From Sulfurimonadaceae bacterium (GTDB lineage: Bacteria > Campylobacterota > Campylobacteria > Campylobacterales > Sulfurimonadaceae): a stretch of 43,718 nt of DNA. The stretch spans positions 18,333 to 62,050 of the forward strand of contig JAQUHB010000016.1 in NCBI GenBank assembly GCA_028683835.1, in the 5' to 3' direction. The position numbers were made by a program, and so were the translations under genes. The notes beneath the pieces were generated by a model, which saw only the letters and a list, made by a program, of their open reading frames with translations, had not been told where the DNA came from and ran no database searches. How positions within the stretch are numbered: the first letter of the stretch is position 1; every line of letters begins with the position of its first letter. Shown in pieces: positions 1-26,199 of this stretch.

Positions 1-127
1 TAGCAACGCTCAGTGTGTTGTCTATATCTGTATCATTGCTGAGTACGCCATGAGCCGCGTCTACTATAAGGGTTGTATCCTCGTTGGTGTTGGAGCTATC
101 AGGTTGAAGGACGCTTGGATCATCTAT
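1..127. repeat. Adhesin repeat unit, copy B (partial, 324-bp period)
   Basis: Bases 1-127 are identical to 325-451, an offset of 324 bp or 108 codons. They encode the start of successive adhesin repeats, including an Asp-Asp-Pro-Ser-Val-Leu-Gln-Pro stretch. The array continues beyond the left edge. Confidence 0.95.
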
Positions 128-976
128 CGGGTTGATTGTAATAGTAAGATCTGCCGTTGCACCTGTGTTGGTTGTATAGCTTACAACCGGAACAGCTCCG
201 TCATAGTTTGCTGCTGGAGTAAATGTATATGAACCATTCCCATTGAGCTGAATGGTACCGACATTGAGGATCGTTGCAGTATCAGCTGCGTTATAAACGG
301 TAGTATCTCCGGCAACTTTAAATGTAGCAACGCTCAGTGTGTTGTCTATATCTGTATCATTGCTGAGTACGCCATGAGCCGCGTCTACTATAAGGGTTGT
401 ATCCTCGTTGGTGTTGGAGCTATCAGGTTGAAGGACGCTTGGATCATCTATTATCCGTATTGGAATTCCATTATTATCTACTTTTGTTCCTAGATTATTA
501 AAAGTTGCATCGCGTAAAGTACTATTTACATCAACAGCATTTCCACTGCGCAAAACAAATACATCTTCTGTCGAATGGCTTTTTATTTGATGATTTCCTG
601 CTGCTGTTTCTTCACTGACCATATCGTCTTGTTTATTTTTAGTACCATCCGTAACAGTATCCTCTTTAGTTAAAACACCGGCATTCCAAGCTGCTAATAC
701 ACTCTCTTTTGCAATGACATCACCAACTGTACTTGCATCTTGAACAAGTGAAGCATCAAAAAGCTGCTCTTGTAAACCATTTAAAGTTATAACATGATTG
801 TGATCCGTCACCATTGTAATTTTTATAAATGCCGAAGCTGGGTTATTCGTATCACCAAAAATAATTTTATTTTCAGTAATCCTATCGCCAACTTTCAATT
901 CAATTACGTTGCCGTGTGAATCCCTCTCAAAAAATTTACCGACAATGCTTTGTACAATTCCAATAGGTGTTTTCAT
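1..976 (-). CDS. Giant repeat adhesin, N-terminal part (LapA-like, partial)
   Basis: The gene reads leftward from an ATG at 976-974 and stays open to the window edge, giving about 325 residues of a much longer protein. Residues 1 to about 110 are a compact non-repetitive region like the retention module of LapA-type adhesins. A Thr-Ala-Ala-Gly site follows at residues 124-127, the same tetrapeptide that the periplasmic protease LapG cuts in Pseudomonas LapA. From about residue 170 there are VCBS/cadherin-like repeats of 108 residues, rich in Asp, Asn and Thr. There is no Sec signal peptide, as expected for a type I substrate with a C-terminal secretion signal, which would lie outside the window. 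It is the last visible gene of the type I secretion operon. The inferred role is surface adhesion or biofilm formation; the ligand is unknown. The adhesin assignment is strong and the LapA-type release mechanism is inferred. Confidence 0.85.
   Translation of the reverse strand, partial: MKTPIGIVQSIVGKFFERDSHGNVIELKVGDRITENKIIFGDTNNPASAFIKITMVTDHNHVITLNGLQEQLFDASLVQDASTVGDVIAKESVLAAWNAGVLTKEDTVTDGTKNKQDDMVSEETAAGNHQIKSHSTEDVFVLRSGNAVDVNSTLRDATFNNLGTKVDNNGIPIRIIDDPSVLQPDSSNTNEDTTLIVDAAHGVLSNDTDIDNTLSVATFKVAGDTTVYNAADTATILNVGTIQLNGNGSYTFTPAANYDGAVPVVSYTTNTGATADLTITINPIDDPSVLQPDSSNTNEDTTLIVDAAHGVLSNDTDIDNTLSVA
325..451. repeat. Adhesin repeat unit, copy A (324-bp period)
   Basis: This is the first copy in reading direction, identical base for base to 1-127. 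The flanking sequence diverges at 452 because the first repeat joins the unique N-terminal region there. Confidence 0.95.
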
Positions 977-1074: not shown

Positions 1075-1662
1075 TTATCTTAGTAATAAAGCCAGAGAAA
1101 GGCGATCTTTAACATTTAGCTTAGAATAGATATGTTTTGCATGTTCTTTTATTGTTCGTGGTGTGATATCAAGTTGTTCTGCTATACTGTTATAGGTAAG
1201 GCCCTCTTTCAATAGAGATGCGACTTCACGTTCCCTATCACTGAGTTTTTCTAAATTTACCTTTTGTTTTCTCTCTGATTTTTCATTGATTTGTAAAATC
1301 AGTTTTGTTGTAAACTCTGGATATAACCAAACCATTCCCTCTTCTATCGCATTGATAGCAGAAATCAGAAAGTGCTCTCTCATCAAGGCATTGCCATAAC
1401 CCATGGCACCAAGCATCAAAAGATTTTTAGCAGTTTCAAAATCAGGAACACGATGTAACACCAAAACTCTATTATCATTAGTATTTAATTTATGTAACAC
1501 ATCTTTACATGTAGGCTTACATGCAGAATAGTTGATCACTATCAAACTAGAGTTTATCTTATATAAATCCTCTAGCTCGTAGACAATGTGGCATTCACTA
1601 GCGATGCTCTGCTTCCAATAATCAAGAAGATTAATATCATCACTAAAGAGTACTATTTTCAT
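1075..1662 (-). CDS. LuxR/NarL-type regulator with a degenerate receiver domain
   Basis: This is a 195-residue DNA-binding protein. Residues 1 to about 115 resemble a response-regulator receiver: the acidic pair Asp8-Asp9 is kept, but the phospho-acceptor position in the strand Leu-Ile-Val-Ile is Asn44, and no conserved Lys is seen near Gly-Tyr-Gly. It is therefore probably not controlled by classical phosphorylation. Residues about 132-190 form a clear LuxR-type helix-turn-helix with the LSDREREVASLL and TPRTIKEHAKHIYSKL motifs. It starts 2 bp after the HlyD-like gene ends, so it is co-transcribed with the exporter, and it directly precedes the adhesin gene. It probably controls that gene or the operon; whether it activates or represses is not visible. 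Confidence 0.85.
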   Translation of the reverse strand: MKIVLFSDDINLLDYWKQSIASECHIVYELEDLYKINSSLIVINYSACKPTCKDVLHKLNTNDNRVLVLHRVPDFETAKNLLMLGAMGYGNALMREHFLISAINAIEEGMVWLYPEFTTKLILQINEKSERKQKVNLEKLSDREREVASLLKEGLTYNSIAEQLDITPRTIKEHAKHIYSKLNVKDRLSLALLLR

Positions 1663-1664
1663 TA

Positions 1665-3002
1665 TTATCTCTCTGTAAACATATATTGCTTCGTTTTCAA
1701 TATAGGTTTGAGGATATAGTCTAAAACTGATTTTTTACCAGTAATAATATCCACACTTGTTGTCATTCCAGGAATAATTCTTAGATGTTTGCCGAGATGG
1801 TTAATATAATTTTTATCTGTTTGGATGCGAACTGTATAAAAAGTATTTCCTTTCTCATCTTTGATACTATCTGGACTTATCAGTACGACTTTACCTTGAA
1901 GGCCACCATAGATAGAAAAATCATACGCGGTAAACTTTACAATCGCTTTTTGTCCATAATAGATAAATGCGATATCTGCAGGTTTAATCTTCACTTCTAC
2001 TAAAAGTGCTTGACCGCTTGGTACTACTTCGACGATATTATCTCCAGGCTTGATAACTCCACCGACTGTATGTACGTAGAGTTTTTGCACAATCCCTTTC
2101 ATCGGAGAACGTACAAGTGTGCGATCAACTTGATCTTGGAGTGCGGTTGAGTTTGCATTCGTACCGCGAAAATCGGACACTGCTTCATTAAGTTTAGTTT
2201 TCGCATCGCTTCGAAAGAGATATGTTGCTTCATTCATGTTACTTTGAACTTCTTTTATGGCCGCTTCAAGACGTGGAATATCGATAGTCGCACTTGCATA
2301 GTCTTGAGATATTTGATTCGCTTCACGCTGCAACTTTAAAAAATCTACTTTTGAACGTACACCCTTTAAGACCATCGGTTCAGTCATTTTAACCTCTTCT
2401 TGAATCATATTGAGAGAATTTTTAAGATGATCTTTTTTCATCTTTGCATCTGCAAGCTGATTTTTACTCTGTTCGAGTTTTTCCCCTAAAGAGCTGAGTT
2501 TGGAACGCAGTTGTTCTTTATTTGTCTGAAAGAGACTTCTTTCATTAGCAACAAGTTCAGGAACCGTTTTGAGAAGCTCTGGACTTGGATTAAATTCTCC
2601 TCCGCTTGCTTCAGCTTTTAGACGAGCAATTTTTGCATCAAGAGAATCTCCTTTTATAGCATTAGTACTGTAATTAGATTGTGATTTTTCATTGCTGATT
2701 TTCACAAGTATCTGATCCTTTTTGACTTCATCACCCTCATTGACAAAAATTTTCTCGACAATTCCCCCTTCAAGGTTTTGTATCATCTGATTTTCACCGC
2801 TTGGGATAATATCTCCATTACCTCTTGCAATCTCATCGATCTGCGTGAAAGACGCCCAGATAATAAACACAAAAACGGTTCCAATCCAAAAGAAAAGAAT
2901 GATGCGAAGTCTTGTAGGCGTTACCTCAAGCATAGCGGCACTCAGGCTGTTCATAAACTCATAATCTTTAGGAGAAAGTTTTTTCTTTGGATCTTTATCC
3001 AT
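1665..3002 (-). CDS. Type I secretion membrane-fusion protein (HlyD/LapC-like)
   Basis: This is a 445-residue periplasmic adaptor that links the inner-membrane ABC transporter to the TolC-like outer-membrane channel. A short cytoplasmic N-terminus is followed by one membrane helix at about residues 33-53. Next come a first biotinyl-lipoyl half with GGIVEKIFVNEGDEV, a long coiled-coil hairpin (about 120-290), the second lipoyl half (VRSPMKGIVQKL) and a C-terminal beta domain. This is the standard order for the HlyD family of RTX and adhesin exporters. Its start overlaps the end of the ABC gene by 8 bp (ATGGATAA), indicating translational coupling. The family assignment is firm. Confidence 0.93.
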   Translation of the reverse strand: MDKDPKKKLSPKDYEFMNSLSAAMLEVTPTRLRIILFFWIGTVFVFIIWASFTQIDEIARGNGDIIPSGENQMIQNLEGGIVEKIFVNEGDEVKKDQILVKISNEKSQSNYSTNAIKGDSLDAKIARLKAEASGGEFNPSPELLKTVPELVANERSLFQTNKEQLRSKLSSLGEKLEQSKNQLADAKMKKDHLKNSLNMIQEEVKMTEPMVLKGVRSKVDFLKLQREANQISQDYASATIDIPRLEAAIKEVQSNMNEATYLFRSDAKTKLNEAVSDFRGTNANSTALQDQVDRTLVRSPMKGIVQKLYVHTVGGVIKPGDNIVEVVPSGQALLVEVKIKPADIAFIYYGQKAIVKFTAYDFSIYGGLQGKVVLISPDSIKDEKGNTFYTVRIQTDKNYINHLGKHLRIIPGMTTSVDIITGKKSVLDYILKPILKTKQYMFTER

Positions 3003-5151
3003 TCAATCCTCCTTGAAGTTTTTCAATAACAAACTTTTTCTCACCGTCTAATACTAATTTCGATTGGTGCATTACCATAACCCTATCTGCAAGGTCTAAA
3101 AGGGAAAGTTTTTGTGTTATCAAGATAAATGTCTTATCTTTAAATTCTTCATGTAAATTTGCGAGAAGTCTTGTTTCTGTTGTTTGATCCATTGCATTAC
3201 TTGGTTCATCCATAAGCATGATTGTCGAGTTTTGCATCAATGCTCTGGCAATTCCGACACTCTGTTTTTGTCCACCGGAAAGGCCCATACCACGCTCACC
3301 TACAGGCATATCATACCCTCTTGGATGTGTATGTATGAACTCTTCCGCAGTACTTATCTTCGCCGCTCGTAAAATATCTGCATCATTTGGATGACGCTCT
3401 GATGAAACAATATTGTCTTTGATCGTTCCACGGAAAAGATGAATATCTTGCGGAACATATCCAATGTACTTTCTAAGATCTGCCGGATCAAGTTGTGATA
3501 TATCTATGCCATCTATCAAAATAGCACCGCTATCAGGTTCATACAGCTTCAAAATAAGCTTAGCGATCGTACTTTTACCAGAACCAATACGCCCGATAAT
3601 AGCTACTTTCTCACCAGAATTGATAACGAAGCTGACATTGTCCAAAGCTGGTATTTCAGAGTCCGGGTATTTAAAGCTTACATTTTGAAATTCGATTTTA
3701 CCATTCATTTGAGGAAGCTGTAAAAACTGCTTTGCAGCTGGGCGTTCAGAGGGCTTTGAAATAATGTCATTTAAGTTCTTATAGGCAGTTCTTGCATCTG
3801 AATAGTTTGTAATAAGTGCCGCAGCCTGCCCGATAGGTGCGACTGTTCTTGATGTAAGAATCACAACACCGATAAGACCACCCATCGTCAGTTCAAAATT
3901 TTTGATAAGATAGACTCCAACTACTACGATAAATACAGTATTGAGTTGGATAAATAGATTTGTGATTGTCGGGATAGACGAAGAAAGTAACCTTGACTTA
4001 AGATTTTTTACGGCTATCTCGCCTGTCGCTTCCTCCCACTCCCATTGACGTTTTCCAAGCATTCTCATCACTTTTACCGTTTCGATATTTTGGAGTGTTT
4101 CGATCAAGATACCATTTTTCTTCGCACTTGCTTCGTAAGAGCTTTCAATACTTTCTTGAAGTGGTTTTTTTATAAAAAAAGCATATGCCAACATCAGCAC
4201 CATCGTAAAGATAGGAATAAAAACGAGCACTCCGCCTATGTAATAAATTACTGCTAAAAATATAATGGCAAAAGGGAGATCGATAACTGCTGTCATAGTG
4301 GCTGTCGTAAAAAATGAACGAACAGATTCAAAATCTTTCAATGTACTTGCAAATGAACCCACTGAACGAGGATGTTCAGAAAGCTTGAGATCTTGAACTT
4401 TCTCAAAAATGATAGAAGACATAATAATATCGCTCTTTTTACCAGCGAGTTCAAGCATGTAAGAACGTGTGAATTTTAAAAATGAATCCAAAAGATAAAC
4501 AAATACGATACCCAAAGTAAAGACCAAAAGTGTTTCCTCTGCATTATTTGGAATAACTCTGTCATACACATTCATCGTAAAAAGAGGAGTTGCCAAAACA
4601 AAAATATTTATAAGAAGCGATGCCCAAAGCACATCTTTGTAGATACTTCCAGAGAGTTTTAGTGTGCTCCAAAACCAATCTTTTTGTCTTATCTTGATCG
4701 TATTTGAACTTTGTGTATCATACTGAAACTCTTTTTTTATCAAGAATCCAAATCCCAGATATTCAGCTTCAAGATCTACTGAACGCACCCAAGCTTCAAG
4801 TCCATCTCCTTCTGGATATATAATTTTTGCTTCTGTTTTATCTTCTGAAAATTTTTCTAAAATACAAGCATTGTCATTACTTAAAAGTAAAATCATAGGA
4901 AGCTGAAGTTGAAGGATATCACTTATCTTCCGTTCAACCAGAGTGGTTTTAAGCCCAGCACGTCCTGCTGCTCTAGAAAAAAGTGATTTTGATTTTTCAA
5001 GAGAAAAAAGTTCTTTGTTTCCTTGAATATTATGTACAGGAAGCCCAGCCATCATAGCTTCTGCCGTAAAAGGCTTGTGAAAAAGTTTCGTATAAAGTAC
5101 TAAAGTTTGTAATAATGCGTCTTGCCTGACGACAGTGGTTTGTTCACTCAT
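2995..5151 (-). CDS. Type I secretion ABC transporter (LapB-like)
   Basis: This is a 718-residue fused permease-ATPase that energises adhesin export. Residues 1 to about 135 form a C39-peptidase-like domain without the catalytic Cys, so it is a docking domain rather than a protease, as in LapB and HlyB. Six membrane helices span about 165-440. The ATPase has Walker A GRIGSGKST, signature LSGGQKQ and Walker B IMLMDEPSNAMD with the catalytic Glu. The H-loop His of the usual ITH motif is Gln680 here (ILITQKLSLL), which is unusual. The gene lies between the OmpA-like and HlyD-like genes. The substrate is inferred to be the adjacent giant adhesin. Confidence 0.93.
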   Translation of the reverse strand: MSEQTTVVRQDALLQTLVLYTKLFHKPFTAEAMMAGLPVHNIQGNKELFSLEKSKSLFSRAAGRAGLKTTLVERKISDILQLQLPMILLLSNDNACILEKFSEDKTEAKIIYPEGDGLEAWVRSVDLEAEYLGFGFLIKKEFQYDTQSSNTIKIRQKDWFWSTLKLSGSIYKDVLWASLLINIFVLATPLFTMNVYDRVIPNNAEETLLVFTLGIVFVYLLDSFLKFTRSYMLELAGKKSDIIMSSIIFEKVQDLKLSEHPRSVGSFASTLKDFESVRSFFTTATMTAVIDLPFAIIFLAVIYYIGGVLVFIPIFTMVLMLAYAFFIKKPLQESIESSYEASAKKNGILIETLQNIETVKVMRMLGKRQWEWEEATGEIAVKNLKSRLLSSSIPTITNLFIQLNTVFIVVVGVYLIKNFELTMGGLIGVVILTSRTVAPIGQAAALITNYSDARTAYKNLNDIISKPSERPAAKQFLQLPQMNGKIEFQNVSFKYPDSEIPALDNVSFVINSGEKVAIIGRIGSGKSTIAKLILKLYEPDSGAILIDGIDISQLDPADLRKYIGYVPQDIHLFRGTIKDNIVSSERHPNDADILRAAKISTAEEFIHTHPRGYDMPVGERGMGLSGGQKQSVGIARALMQNSTIMLMDEPSNAMDQTTETRLLANLHEEFKDKTFILITQKLSLLDLADRVMVMHQSKLVLDGEKKFVIEKLQGGLNG

Positions 5152-5211: not shown

Positions 5212-6348
5212 TTAGTATAAAAGTTTTGCTTCAATACGGCGATTAGCTTCTCGTCCTGAAGCATACGTATCGTCGGCGATAGGGTCAAGTTCACCACGTC
5301 CATCGCTTGTAATTCTCGAAGCTTCTACACCTTCATGGATTAATGCAGTTTTTACAGACATTGCTCTTGCTTGAGAAAGTTTCATATTAGCATCATATGA
5401 CCCAATACTATCAGTGTGACCTATTATTTGTACTTTATACATTGGATTTTTTTTCAAAAAATCTGCAAATGAAACCACTTTTGGATAAGACTCTTTTGAT
5501 ATCTCACTCGAATTTGTTGCAAAATTAAGAGATAAGTTTTGAGTAATTGGGCAACCATTCACATCAACAACAGAATTTTTTGGAGTGTTTGGACATTTAT
5601 CGAGAGAATCAGGAGTACCATCTCCGTCGCTATCATTTATCACGACGCTTGAGACGATTGGTGCGACGACAATAGTGCATCCTTCTTTATCGACCTTTAC
5701 ACCTTTTGGAGTATCTGGACATTTATCATGAATATCTAAGACACCATCTCCATCACTATCTTTTTCTTCCGGATTTAAAATATACATCGTGACCATAACA
5801 CGATTAGAAAGATCCCGTCCTTCTGTAGTTGCATCGTTAAAAAACATATCTTTACCGCCTCTATACTCTACAACGGTCACATTTTTATCGATACCACCAT
5901 CAACAAGAGCATCTTGAATCTTTAAAGCATATTTTTTACTTTTTTCCATACTAGTTTTTGAATCTAAAGAGTAACGAAACCAGCGCTGTATTTTACTTGC
6001 ATAAGCGCGTGATTGAACTGATACTTCATTCATATCATCTGTTGGCTCATTCGTATGTCCTATAATTGTGACTAGAATTCTCTCACCTTTAGAGCTAGTT
6101 TCCTTAATGTTATTTATGATCTCTTTAAGATGAGTTTTATATTTTGAACTCAATGAATCTCCATCAAACCAAAGCATATCAAAACGTTTGATTTGTTTAA
6201 AATCTCCATCCATAAAAATATCAGGCTTAACATTAGCACTTACTTTTTGATCCATTAAGGGAGAATAACTATCATCATAAGTTCCAGCATATAAAGACAA
6301 AGAACAAACTAATGATAATAAGATTGGTTTTATAAGTAATTTTCTCAT
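5212..6348 (-). CDS. OmpA-family outer-membrane protein with TSP3 calcium repeats
   Basis: This is a 378-residue protein with a Sec signal peptide (residues 1 to about 21, ending near LYAG). Residues about 50-185 look like a first, divergent OmpA-like domain, with IIGHTNEP and a late GRDLSNRVMV. Two thrombospondin type 3 repeats follow (DSDGDGVLDIHDKCPDTP and DSDGDGTPDSLDKCPNTP), which bind calcium in known examples. A canonical OmpA peptidoglycan-binding domain ends the protein (IIGHTDSIGS; GREANRRIEAKL). It starts 4 bp after the tolC-like gene ends and precedes the ABC gene, so it is probably an accessory part of the secretion system that anchors the exporter or adhesin to the cell wall. 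That role is inferred from context. Confidence 0.88.
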   Translation of the reverse strand: MRKLLIKPILLSLVCSLSLYAGTYDDSYSPLMDQKVSANVKPDIFMDGDFKQIKRFDMLWFDGDSLSSKYKTHLKEIINNIKETSSKGERILVTIIGHTNEPTDDMNEVSVQSRAYASKIQRWFRYSLDSKTSMEKSKKYALKIQDALVDGGIDKNVTVVEYRGGKDMFFNDATTEGRDLSNRVMVTMYILNPEEKDSDGDGVLDIHDKCPDTPKGVKVDKEGCTIVVAPIVSSVVINDSDGDGTPDSLDKCPNTPKNSVVDVNGCPITQNLSLNFATNSSEISKESYPKVVSFADFLKKNPMYKVQIIGHTDSIGSYDANMKLSQARAMSVKTALIHEGVEASRITSDGRGELDPIADDTYASGREANRRIEAKLLY

Positions 6349-6352
6349 ACTA

Positions 6353-7897
6353 TCACTCCTTGCTTGATACTGTTTTTTGTGTATTTGAAGGTTGTTTTTG
6401 AATCTCTACCATTGTATTTGTATTACTTTCTTTTGCACTCTTCTTACAACCATCAGGCATAATATTGTCTTCATGCAAAGAGTTATCGCACAGATCAAGA
6501 TTATCAGGGACATTATCATGATCAACATCAAGTTTCGTAGGAACAATGTCTAAGATCTCTTTTGCTTCACTATTAGTATAAAGATTTACTTGTGATGTAT
6601 ATTTTGATTCGTCTCCCGTCACTGCCAAGACTAGAAGTCCCATCGCATCAAGAACTCTGTACTTTGCAAGAAGATAATCATATTCAGCCTTAATAATCTG
6701 AGAGCGAGCATTGATAACATCATTTTGAGATGAGAGAAGATCTAGTAACGATCTACGTCCTAAATCATACTCCTCTTTATAAAGCTCCAATGTTTTATCG
6801 CTAAACTTACTATATTCTCGTAGAGACTGAAGTTGTTTTCCAATATTTTCATACGCATTCCAAGAGAGATCCAACCCTTCAATAACTTGACGTTTAAGAT
6901 CTCTTTTAATCTCTATCTCTTGATCTATACTGCTGACACTTTTTTGTATATCTGCACTGTCTGCACCACCGCGGAAGAGATTGTATGTCAACACTAAACG
7001 TGCACGAAAACGATCATCTGGTTGATCAAAAGCATTGGTCTTTGACGCATCATTATAAAACTGACTTACCTCCATATCCACCTTTGGATAGTAGTCTTTT
7101 TTCTTTTGCTTCCAAAGAGCTTGAGCACCTTTAATGTTATAACGACTTACAAGCAGAGATGGATTGTGATCTACCGCATAAAGTGTTGCGCGTTCTTGAC
7201 TTTGTGGCATAGGAAAATCAAAGTTAGGACGCTGCATCTCGCTTGGCTCTGGCATACGGCCTAAAAGACGTTTGAAATTGTACTCGGTATCATGCGTATT
7301 TGTTTCCTGCACAATATAATTTGAATGAGCGAGTGCAAGTGATGATTCTACTTTCTTGACTTCAGAAGCAGTTGTAAGACCAGCATCATAAAGGTCTTTA
7401 ACTTTTTTATAAATATCATCATTGATCGATACATTCTCTTTTTCTGTTTTCAAAAGCTCATAAGAACGCATTACGTTTAAGTAAGCACTCGTCATCTTCA
7501 GCGCACTGTCATTTGATTTTTCTACATAGTTATAAGCCGCCGCTAATATTCTAGCTTGTTGGTAATCTACTTTATACATCGTTCCAAAACCGTCAAAAAG
7601 ATTTTGAGTCAACTGAAGTGATGTTTCGTAATTTGTATAATCAGTATTCACTACATGATCATACTGTTTCCCCGCATTATTCGTTCCTGCTGTAGCCCGT
7701 AAATCTATCGTTGGATAGTACTCTGATTCTGCGATATTGAGATCTTGCTGAGTTGCTCTATAGTTCTTGAGTCGTTCTTGGACTACTGGGTTTGTGTTTA
7801 ATACTTCAATAACACTCTCTTTAAGTGTTAAACCAAAAGCTGATACCGAAAATATACAGCTTATGGCTGCCAATGATAAAAAATACTTTTGTACCAT
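6353..7897 (-). CDS. TolC-like outer-membrane channel of type I secretion (LapE-like)
   Basis: This is a 514-residue outer-membrane efflux protein with a signal peptide (residues 1-22, ending FSVSAFG). Two OEP repeats are visible, starting around TLKESVIEVLNTNPVV and again around ATLYAVDHNPSLL, with the long helices and the GRRSLLDLLSSQNDVINAR motif typical of adhesin-exporting TolC proteins. After the barrel/tunnel part there is an extra tail from about residue 457 containing one thrombospondin type 3-like calcium motif (DVDHDNVPDNLDLCDN) and a polar end. This matches the motif in the OmpA-like protein next door. It is the first gene of the operon, with an extended -10 promoter upstream. Confidence 0.92.
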   Translation of the reverse strand: MVQKYFLSLAAISCIFSVSAFGLTLKESVIEVLNTNPVVQERLKNYRATQQDLNIAESEYYPTIDLRATAGTNNAGKQYDHVVNTDYTNYETSLQLTQNLFDGFGTMYKVDYQQARILAAAYNYVEKSNDSALKMTSAYLNVMRSYELLKTEKENVSINDDIYKKVKDLYDAGLTTASEVKKVESSLALAHSNYIVQETNTHDTEYNFKRLLGRMPEPSEMQRPNFDFPMPQSQERATLYAVDHNPSLLVSRYNIKGAQALWKQKKKDYYPKVDMEVSQFYNDASKTNAFDQPDDRFRARLVLTYNLFRGGADSADIQKSVSSIDQEIEIKRDLKRQVIEGLDLSWNAYENIGKQLQSLREYSKFSDKTLELYKEEYDLGRRSLLDLLSSQNDVINARSQIIKAEYDYLLAKYRVLDAMGLLVLAVTGDESKYTSQVNLYTNSEAKEILDIVPTKLDVDHDNVPDNLDLCDNSLHEDNIMPDGCKKSAKESNTNTMVEIQKQPSNTQKTVSSKE

Positions 7898-18396: not shown

Positions 18397-19665
18397 ATGA
18401 AAAAAATCAATGAGATAACTGAAGAATTAAAACTTCAGATTATGGATGCCAATAGTAAAGTTTTTTATACTGAAGATGAGAAAAATTGTATTTTGGATTA
18501 TTATAGACAAGCGTTATGTGCACTTTTTTTAGGTAAGAAAACTGAAGTATTAGAAAAATTTTATGAACTTTCAAATCTAAAATTATTCCGCAATATTCCT
18601 TATTCAATTTTTTTCAGTGAAATCGAATTTATAAAAAATAAAGTTGCAAATGAGATTTTACTAAAAAAAGATGCCAGCAAGCTTTTTGAACTTTTTGAAC
18701 TTTTTAAAGAAATAGAAAATAGTATTGCTAAGATTTTTTTAAATTCTTATACAGAGGAATTAAAAAACAAGAATGCACTTAGAATACGTGCTATCGAGAT
18801 ATTTAAAGAGAAAAAAATCATCAAATATTATGAGCACCATCTTGATTGGCTCAATGATCTTGCACTCTCCATCCGTAATCTTGATATTAGTCTATTCCCA
18901 CAAACGAATTCAAAATTATGTGAATTTGGAAAATGGCTTGATGCCGAGGGCAAAATAACTATCTCCAACAACAGTCAATATAGAACACTTAAGTTAGCTC
19001 ATGACAAACTTCACCAACTTTCATCAAGAATTAAATCTCATATAACTTCAAAAAAAGAGATTGAATATATGCTTATTTTATCTATGCTTCAAAAATGTGA
19101 ATATCTTTCTATTGATGTAGGAATAGAACTCTCTTTTATAAAAAGTTCAGAATATATGCAAAAAGCACATTATGACACGCTCACAAATGTCCTAAATAGA
19201 AACTATCTTGATGATATCTACGAAAATGAGTTTAAACTAGCAAAACTTACAGGCAAAAGATTTTCTGTAGCGATGTGCGACCTTGATCACTTTAAAACAA
19301 TCAATGACACCTATGGACATGACAGCGGTGATATTGTTTTAAAATCATTTGCATCTTTTCTCAAATCAACATTAAGAGAAACCGATTACATCATAAGATA
19401 CGGAGGAGAGGAGTTTGTCATTATTTTCCCATCGACTTCAATTGAAAATGGTATAAAACTTTTAGAAAGATTTAGAGAAAATTTGGAACATTTTGATATT
19501 GAAACAAATATAAAAACCATAAATATTACAGCATCATTTGGCATAATTGAGGTAGATCCTAATGACTCAGATAGATATGAATTCAATATTGAAAACAGTA
19601 TACGAAAAGTTGATGAAAAACTTTACCTTGCAAAAGAGAAGGGAAGAAACCGAATAGAGTTTTAA
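18397..19665 (+). CDS. CZB-GGDEF diguanylate cyclase (DgcZ-like output module)
   Basis: This 422-residue enzyme is predicted to make cyclic di-GMP. Residues 1 to about 135 are all-helical and unrecognised. Residues about 145-210 form a chemoreceptor zinc-binding (CZB) domain: His147 or His148, Cys175 in CEFGKW, His202 and His206, with the Cys-His-His spacing (27 and 4) matching the zinc ligands of E. coli DgcZ as I recall them. A GGDEF domain follows with CDLDHFK, the active-site GGEEF at 336-340 and an intact inhibitory I-site RETD at 327-330. It is predicted to be active, feedback-inhibited and possibly zinc-controlled. It has no membrane span. It ends just before oriC1. Confidence 0.9.
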   Translation: MKKINEITEELKLQIMDANSKVFYTEDEKNCILDYYRQALCALFLGKKTEVLEKFYELSNLKLFRNIPYSIFFSEIEFIKNKVANEILLKKDASKLFELFELFKEIENSIAKIFLNSYTEELKNKNALRIRAIEIFKEKKIIKYYEHHLDWLNDLALSIRNLDISLFPQTNSKLCEFGKWLDAEGKITISNNSQYRTLKLAHDKLHQLSSRIKSHITSKKEIEYMLILSMLQKCEYLSIDVGIELSFIKSSEYMQKAHYDTLTNVLNRNYLDDIYENEFKLAKLTGKRFSVAMCDLDHFKTINDTYGHDSGDIVLKSFASFLKSTLRETDYIIRYGGEEFVIIFPSTSIENGIKLLERFRENLEHFDIETNIKTINITASFGIIEVDPNDSDRYEFNIENSIRKVDEKLYLAKEKGRNRIEF

Positions 19666-24792: not shown

Positions 24793-26199
24793 ATGCTATT
24801 ACCCGAAAAAAAAGAGAGAGAAAATAGATTTAAACTTGCACTTCGCATGGGTTTACCTATCTTTTTTTTGGGTCTTTTATCTATCGTTTCATTTATTAAT
24901 CAACCTGCTCAAAATATAACATCTTCATTCTACATTGGCGCCACCCTTATACTTGCCATTATGATTTACTTCTTTTTATATATGATTTATAGAGGATTTG
25001 ATGAGAGAATTACTGATCCAATCACACATATATTTACTCGTGAATATCTTTATAAACTTTTAAAAAAAGAGATTCAAAAAGAAAATTATTCCATAATCCT
25101 TGTTAGTATAGATAATCTTCATACAATTAATGAAGTATATGGAATAAAAAATGGAGATAATATTCTTTATGGCATTGTTAAAGAGATTTCAACTTTTTTA
25201 TCATCAAAAGGAATTAATGATTTTCCACTTGGTCATATAAAAGGGGGAGATTTTTTAATAGGTCTCGATGGAGAGAAAAGTGAATACACCTCTATTATTG
25301 ATCTGATGTGTTTAAAACTTTCTACATGCAATCTTTACGGCATTGAAGTTCAAATAATAGCTTCTATTGCTGATAACAACTTTTCAAAAAATTTAGATTA
25401 TTTGATAGATCATCTTTTTGAACAACAAATTCTCAATAAATCTTCAAAAAATATTCTCAAAGAAGATGATATTATTGATCCAAATGATGTACAAATATCT
25501 ATAATTGATGCTATAAAAAATAGTAATTTTAAAATATACAGTCAAAATGTCTATGATAAAGATGGAAATATATTTTTAGAAGACTTATCAATAAAACTTC
25601 AGATAGAAAATAAAATAATTCATCAAAATACTTTTATCCCCGTTGTAAATAGGTTAGGGCTTTCAAAAGAGTTTGATCTTGTTCTCTTGGATAAAGTTGC
25701 AAAAATGGCATCTACAAATGAAAGAATATATTCAATTTGTGTTTCACCCACTACACTTAGAGAACCCTCATTTGTATCACATATGAAAAACTTATTAGGC
25801 ACGTACACATCTATACAAAATAAAATAGTCCTTTTAATCTCTGAAATTGATTATTATAATAATATTTTGCGTTATAATCAAACAATTCAAAATTTGAGAA
25901 CAATGGGTGTGTACATTGCTATAGACAGATTTGGAGAATATCATTCGAGTTTTTTATATTTTAGAGAAATAGAAGTAGATATGGTTCGATTTGATTCAAG
26001 ATATACAAAAAGCTTGAGTTCTACACGGTATAGAGATATTGTGAAGGGCTTACATGGAAGTATAAATACTCTTCATTCAAAGTCGTGGATGAAAATGATA
26101 GAAGATAAAGAAATATATGAAATATCCAAAGAACTAAGAATAGATCTTTTACAAGGTCGGTATTGTGATAATAAAAATTTTACGGGAGAAATAGATTGA
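24793..26199 (+). CDS. Membrane protein with degenerate GGDEF and EAL domains
   Basis: This is a 468-residue protein. Two membrane helices at about residues 19-37 and 44-65 are followed by a GGDEF-like domain in which the active motif is reduced to KGGDFLIGL. An EAL-like domain follows in which the EAL signature is LEDLSIKL and the metal-binding DDFG is IDRFG; later landmarks are DMVRFD and LQGRYC. Both domains have lost key catalytic residues, so it is probably a c-di-GMP receptor or scaffold rather than an enzyme. It follows gyrB by 5 bp, with no clear ribosome site, and overlaps the queF start. Confidence 0.8.
   Translation: MLLPEKKERENRFKLALRMGLPIFFLGLLSIVSFINQPAQNITSSFYIGATLILAIMIYFFLYMIYRGFDERITDPITHIFTREYLYKLLKKEIQKENYSIILVSIDNLHTINEVYGIKNGDNILYGIVKEISTFLSSKGINDFPLGHIKGGDFLIGLDGEKSEYTSIIDLMCLKLSTCNLYGIEVQIIASIADNNFSKNLDYLIDHLFEQQILNKSSKNILKEDDIIDPNDVQISIIDAIKNSNFKIYSQNVYDKDGNIFLEDLSIKLQIENKIIHQNTFIPVVNRLGLSKEFDLVLLDKVAKMASTNERIYSICVSPTTLREPSFVSHMKNLLGTYTSIQNKIVLLISEIDYYNNILRYNQTIQNLRTMGVYIAIDRFGEYHSSFLYFREIEVDMVRFDSRYTKSLSSTRYRDIVKGLHGSINTLHSKSWMKMIEDKEIYEISKELRIDLLQGRYCDNKNFTGEID

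Follow-up and report, generated by a model that had tools for sequence, protein, structure and literature searches.

The analysed stretch of DNA (hereafter the window; 43,718 nucleotides, C82:18333-62050 in our contig numbering) belongs to contig JAQUHB010000016.1 of a Sulfurimonadaceae bacterium, whose assembly (GCA_028683835.1) comprises 2.5 Mb in 88 contigs. It begins with the N-terminal part of an adhesin gene on the minus strand (1..976, start codon at 974-976), defined by its ORF and its translation, which begins MKTPIGIVQSIVGKFFERD; the gene runs past the window edge to C82:16051. The cadherin-like repeats of the adhesin, which start within 2..451 on the minus strand (PF17803 and related matches, repeat positions), have a period of 108 residues with copies at residues 176 and 284. 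Beyond the window the C-terminus contains RTX-like glycine-aspartate stretches, where PF00353 is matched only at E 0.07. Directly outside the window edge, inside the repeats, there is a run of exactly 100 N (C82:18233-18332), which probably hides further repeats. The ORF as assembled reads through this gap and has 1085 aa, a size that does not bear out the word 'giant' in the original prediction.

A complete type I secretion system (T1SS) adjoins the adhesin gene on the same strand. It consists of an HlyD-type adaptor (1665..3002; TIGR01843, 408.9 bits, cut-off 208.65), an LssB-type permease/ATPase (2995..5151; TIGR03375, 864.4 bits, cut-off 693.1) and a TolC-type outer membrane pore (6353..7897; TIGR01844, 265 bits, cut-off 225.15), all of which exceed the cut-offs of their models. 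Also on the minus strand are the genes for an OmpA-domain protein with TSP3 repeats (5212..6348; PF00691 E 5.5e-31, PF02412) and for a LuxR-type regulator (1075..1662; PF00196 E 6e-16). The latter was considered as a VpsT-like c-di-GMP sensor and rejected, since no W[FLM][TS]R, which we take to be the motif of such sensors, was seen in it by eye. As had been predicted, the window encodes two c-di-GMP-related proteins, a CZB-GGDEF protein (18397-19665) and a GGDEF-EAL protein (24793-26199), and Pfam scans of the window's ORFs with a length of 150 aa or more (34 of 34) detected neither lapG nor lapD. The genes for the CZB-GGDEF and GGDEF-EAL proteins flank dnaA, gyrB and the gene for the beta subunit of polymerase III.

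N-terminal module and TAAG motif of the adhesin

Residues 1-80 of the adhesin (737..976, minus strand) were assigned to a retention module with a predicted beta-rich fold on the basis of AlphaFold2, Foldseek and a profile match. In the AlphaFold2 model, built from a 10-row alignment, these residues are confident (pLDDT block means 77-95), and the chain around the TAAG site is disordered. In the PDB, the sole Foldseek match at E <= 0.001 is 5ix9, a cell surface anchoring domain (E 5.2e-4, TMt 0.80; rmsd 2.0 across 77 columns, 17% identity), which is also the only match at E <= 1 in a sequence-profile search (E 3.4e-6). The domain 5ix9 comes from the adhesin of Marinomonas primoryensis, in which it serves as the membrane-anchoring domain; the species is named in PMC13090378. 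The modelling of the N-terminus against a retention module, which had been proposed as a check, therefore returned a predicted fold like that of an anchoring domain. The NF033682 model (retention_LapA) gives 25.6 bits on the N-terminus against a cut-off of 50, and the adhesin is its sole match at E <= 0.001 in this genome. As proof of a retention module this match was rejected, because it is below the cut-off and the model also matches 55 of the 149 genomes sampled from the order, many of these matches being short ORFs that span positions 3-69 only, which we suspect to be FecR-like proteins. For both reasons the fold, the alignment and the gene association were relied on instead. After the module, a weakly predicted helix at residues 90-100 (677..709, minus strand; DSSP on the model, pLDDT about 50) is a candidate targeting helix, an element known for LapG substrates (PMC13090378).

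The motif TAAG, of the form [T/A/P]AAG, occupies residues 124-127, between the module and the repeats (from about residue 176). As the original prediction had said, it follows a non-repeat N-terminal module. The position given there needs correction, because 599-607 codes only for T-A-A and the four codons occupy 596-607 on the minus strand. From the translation, the alignment and the analogy with LapA, in which LapG cuts between two Ala residues, LapG is predicted to act at this site and to cut between Ala125 and Ala126. The residues up to the site read DDMVSEETAAG, and there is no DP motif before it. Such a motif has been described just before gammaproteobacterial sites and as part of the optimal substrate of the P. 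fluorescens LapG (PMC13090378). DP was treated as not defining, since the Thiomicrospira site in the table of PMC3032553, DALEETAAG, is also without it.

When residues 76-165 were shuffled 100,000 times, TAAG arose in 0.6% of the cases and [TAP]AAG in 1.0%. At the level of sequence, the motif in one protein alone can be taken as modest evidence, which is made strong by its conservation among relatives. Among 41 distinct related N-termini (phmmer E <= 1e-3; loci L003-L005 left out), TAAG is found at the same aligned column in 28 and within residues 76-165 in 33, compared with 0.33 expected from shuffling, although these rows lean slightly towards TAAG because the phmmer query included the TAAG region. 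Once the N-termini are clustered at 70% identity, the count is 21 of 32. TAAG is missing from the column in 13 N-termini and from residues 76-165 in eight. In four of the 13 the column reads TNAG and a TAAG lies upstream of it, and the other nine have TTAG (2), TALG, TAVG, TSSG, TAAK, SAAE or SDAE or are siteless (one), the N-terminus with SDAE carrying TAAG further on, at 153. Between the adhesin and its nearest relative (L094), 8 of 21 residues of the linker before the site are identical, compared with 6/6 in EETAAG and one of the next four. In two loci of genus g7 in the same order (L061 and L065, of genomes G002 and G076) the site reads TALG or TAVG and LapG and LapD are no more than about 6 kb away, a hint of relaxed specificity at the second Ala.

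LapG and LapD in this genome and its relatives

The genome search for LapG and LapD, another check that had been proposed, found one of each on contig C16, encoded by genes that overlap by 4 bp; the adhesin is on a separate contig. Neither of the two results that were to speak against the original prediction was therefore obtained. The LapG (C16:4615-5232, minus strand) is the sole Peptidase_C93 match of the genome (PF06035, E 2.3e-14, over the cut-off), and its only PDB matches at E < 0.1 are the LapG proteins of L. pneumophila and P. fluorescens (E 1e-36 and 2e-35). Aligned to 4fgo and 4u65, it has the Cys-His-Asp triad and the GDCED calcium motif, and its score on the LapG equivalog model is 163 bits, below the cut-off of 320. 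In 21 Campylobacterales LapGs, namely this one and those taken from 20 of the 34 LapG genomes in the order sample, Cys and His are present in 21/21 and Asp in 19/21. The LapD-linked LapGs L147 and L149 (genomes G072 and G015) have Gly in the column of the catalytic Asp (ILILGNN); judging from the alignment, they may be inactive, or the alignment may be shifted at this column. A further LapG match is present elsewhere in the G015 genome. Many genomes of the family have two to four LapG-type matches, some of them away from LapD, and the present genome has one. Moreover, a dCache-PAS-GGDEF protein is encoded on the lapG-lapD strand of contig C16 (L005:6951-8807, minus), one radical-SAM gene away from the pair; this protein is a candidate for the diguanylate cyclase of the circuit.

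The LapD matches LapD_MoxY_N (PF16448, E 6.4e-34; domain 113.7 bits, over the cut-off) as well as PF00990 and PF00563. It covers positions 1-640 of 647 in the NCBIfam LapD model with 291.9 bits, below the cut-off of 1020, and its best PDB matches are LapD structures. It was compared with 66 other LapDs drawn from 70 loci, after merging of copies identical in residues 201-400 and removal of L176, whose ORFs all fall short of 560 aa. The GW loop and the PxWF face are kept in this set (W in 67/67, PWF in 66/67); the role of the Trp in the hold of LapD on LapG is described in PMC3032553 and PMC4359373.

Among the 149 genomes of the order, LapG was found in 34 and LapD in 38. All 34 genomes with LapG also have LapD, and each of them has one or more LapG matches no farther than 1.6 kb from a LapD match. 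In a sample of 151 family genomes, LapG is present in 58 of the 62 with this N-terminus versus 37 of the 89 without it (Fisher p 7e-12, related genomes not being independent). In the four genomes with the N-terminus (G229, G245, G281 and G283) that were counted as misses, no LapG match was found; the LapG of G281 may lie past the contig end, because LapD is at base 71 of the contig, and the completeness of G245 and G283 is 81% and 88%. Of 33 retention-matching ORFs that were chosen by hand and measured, 15, which come from 13 genomes, are no more than 13 kb from a gene for LapG.

The EAL pocket of LapD

The GGDEF and EAL domains of this LapD are degenerate, with NGTEF in place of GGDEF and NVLSI or VLSIT in place of ExLxR. 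Six pocket positions were scored, taking ExLxR as listed for LapD (PMC10333796) together with the Asn and Glu common to the LapDs of P. fluorescens and V. cholerae. Three of them are kept (the middle Glu, Lys and Gln), and the changes are Asn to Arg, the Glu of ERVE to Met, and ExLxR without its Arg, the last position of which is Ile in pairwise and Thr in multiple alignments, neither being Arg. The canonical EAL pocket for c-di-GMP is thus not found in this protein, whereas the V. cholerae LapD keeps 5/6. In all five LapDs of the same genus the Asn and Glu are changed, with Ile replacing Met in one.

When the 67 LapDs were divided by us into two classes according to the pocket score (four or more, class A; lower, class B), 31 keep four to six pocket residues and 36, including the present one, keep two or three. 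The two classes are separated by one branch with 99/96 support in a tree built with the trait columns included. The low-score class has lost ExLxR and has Arg in place of the pocket Asn in 25/36, Tyr at position 456 in 94% (versus Ala in 97% of the high-score class) and Tyr at position 473 in 81% (His in the present LapD; Asp throughout the high-score class). Because this class has conserved residues of its own, its EAL pocket looks rewritten, not merely decayed, as far as the alignment goes. The periplasmic face that binds LapG is kept in both classes, and the Arg of the GGDEF site in 62/67, the present LapD having Lys there. In the V. cholerae LapD, the EAL domain and the GGDEF domain both bind c-di-GMP (PMC6890996), and the R450 position of ExLxR is Ala; R450 was therefore rejected as decisive for binding. 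The V. cholerae EAL residue R423 is uninformative, because the P. fluorescens LapD has Phe at the same position.

Proposed retention and release, and the possible input signal

The adhesin is probably of the retention-module type, exported by a T1SS, held in the pore and freed by a LapG cut at the predicted TAAG site. Export by a T1SS proceeds with the C-terminus first. The neighbouring HlyD/LssB/TolC-type system would export the adhesin, and the beta-rich module would remain in the periplasm, where it would anchor the chain in the TolC-like pore. Periplasmic LapG would cut TAAG between Ala125 and Ala126 and so remove the module, after which the adhesin would leave the cell; LapD would bind and restrain LapG through its intact Trp loop. 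We infer retention, cleavage and sequestration by analogy; what comes directly from computation is the TAAG motif, the predicted fold of the module, which genes are present and how they are arranged, the catalytic residues of LapG, the grip of LapD and the conservation. For the prediction of retention and release by a c-di-GMP-controlled protease, LapG and LapD, the fold, the conserved site and the T1SS speak in favour, but its c-di-GMP part is weaker owing to the lost EAL contacts. We incline slightly to the view that cytoplasmic c-di-GMP is the signal read by LapD here. Such control is plausible rather than established, because the EAL pocket is without the canonical contacts.

The changed Asn, Glu and Arg of the pocket, the first two of which are shared by all LapDs of the genus, and the separate branch of 36 LapDs with conserved residues of its own and an unaltered face towards LapG would also fit another input, in place of the canonical pocket or besides it, namely a site on the GGDEF side, a different ligand or a protein partner, with the LapG-adhesin part unaffected. 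An additional input is known for the LapD homologue BpfD of Shewanella, which responds to cAMP-CRP (PMC10333796). On the other hand, a degenerate signature alone is no proof of lost binding: the V. cholerae LapD, whose ExLxR is likewise altered, binds c-di-GMP in its EAL and GGDEF domains (PMC6890996), the middle Glu, Lys and Gln are still present here, and the GGDEF site keeps Arg in most LapDs and Lys in ours. We regard this other input as a real possibility, though not the one we favour. For the low-score LapDs as a class (36/67), release of adhesins in response to another ligand or partner, or by way of a GGDEF-side site alone, is a somewhat more doubtful proposal; if true, it would describe a Lap circuit with an unchanged output and a new input.

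The assignment of LapG to this adhesin could be questioned as well, since lapG-lapD and the adhesin gene are on different contigs and LapG occurs in 37 of the 89 family genomes that have no match to this N-terminus. The protease might then serve another protein, or the TAAG of a genuine retention module might be a relic. We consider this improbable, because the genome has only one retention_LapA match (E <= 0.001) and only one Peptidase_C93 match, EETAAG is fully kept while the surrounding linker drifts, and the N-terminus is strongly associated with LapG in the family. It is harder still to believe that TAAG is a chance tetrapeptide and that the N-terminus is a beta-rich domain, FecR-like or otherwise, without a role in retention. 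A [TAP]AAG motif does arise in 1.0% of the shuffles of one sequence, and the NF033682 match is weak and of a kind also found on short ORFs elsewhere; but TAAG occurs in this region in 33 of the 41 relatives, where 0.33 would be expected, the sole Foldseek match in the PDB at E <= 0.001 is 5ix9, an anchoring domain, and LapG co-occurs with the N-terminus. The preferred reading, retention in the pore and release by LapG, places a predicted LapG/LapD-controlled retention adhesin in Campylobacterales, with Sulfurimonas MAGs and S. indica among the named relatives. In the accessible parts of the literature searched, which included few subscription papers, no description of such an adhesin in this order was found, and absence is not proven by that. 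Should the changed pocket of the receptor reflect a new input, this would show that a circuit for biofilm release is able to exchange its signal while its output stays the same.

Compared with known Lap systems, the adhesin resembles LapA of P. fluorescens in its N-terminal module, TAAG site, repeats and export by a T1SS, and the catalytic residues of LapG and the Trp loop of LapD are the same in both. The differences are that the predicted cut is at 125|126 rather than 108|109 as reported for LapA (PMC3032545), no DP precedes the site, lapG-lapD are away from the adhesin gene, and the EAL pocket of LapD is altered. The module is like the anchoring domain of the M. primoryensis adhesin (5ix9) in predicted fold, although the sequence identity is low and residues after about 80 are outside the match. 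In V. cholerae, one LapG/LapD pair acts on two adhesin classes, FrhA and CraA (PMC6890996). The V. cholerae LapD and the present one both depart from ExLxR, but the former retains the pocket Asn as well as the Glu of ERVE, both of which are missing here. In Desulfovibrio vulgaris, DvhG is a LapG-type protease reported to act on [T/A/P]AAG after a retention domain, together with the c-di-GMP receptor DvhD (PMC13090378). DvhD has dCache and HD-GYP domains and no such Trp, whereas the receptor here is of the LapD type with the Trp kept. The adhesin thus adds to a known kind, and the altered receptor pocket makes its circuit a variant.
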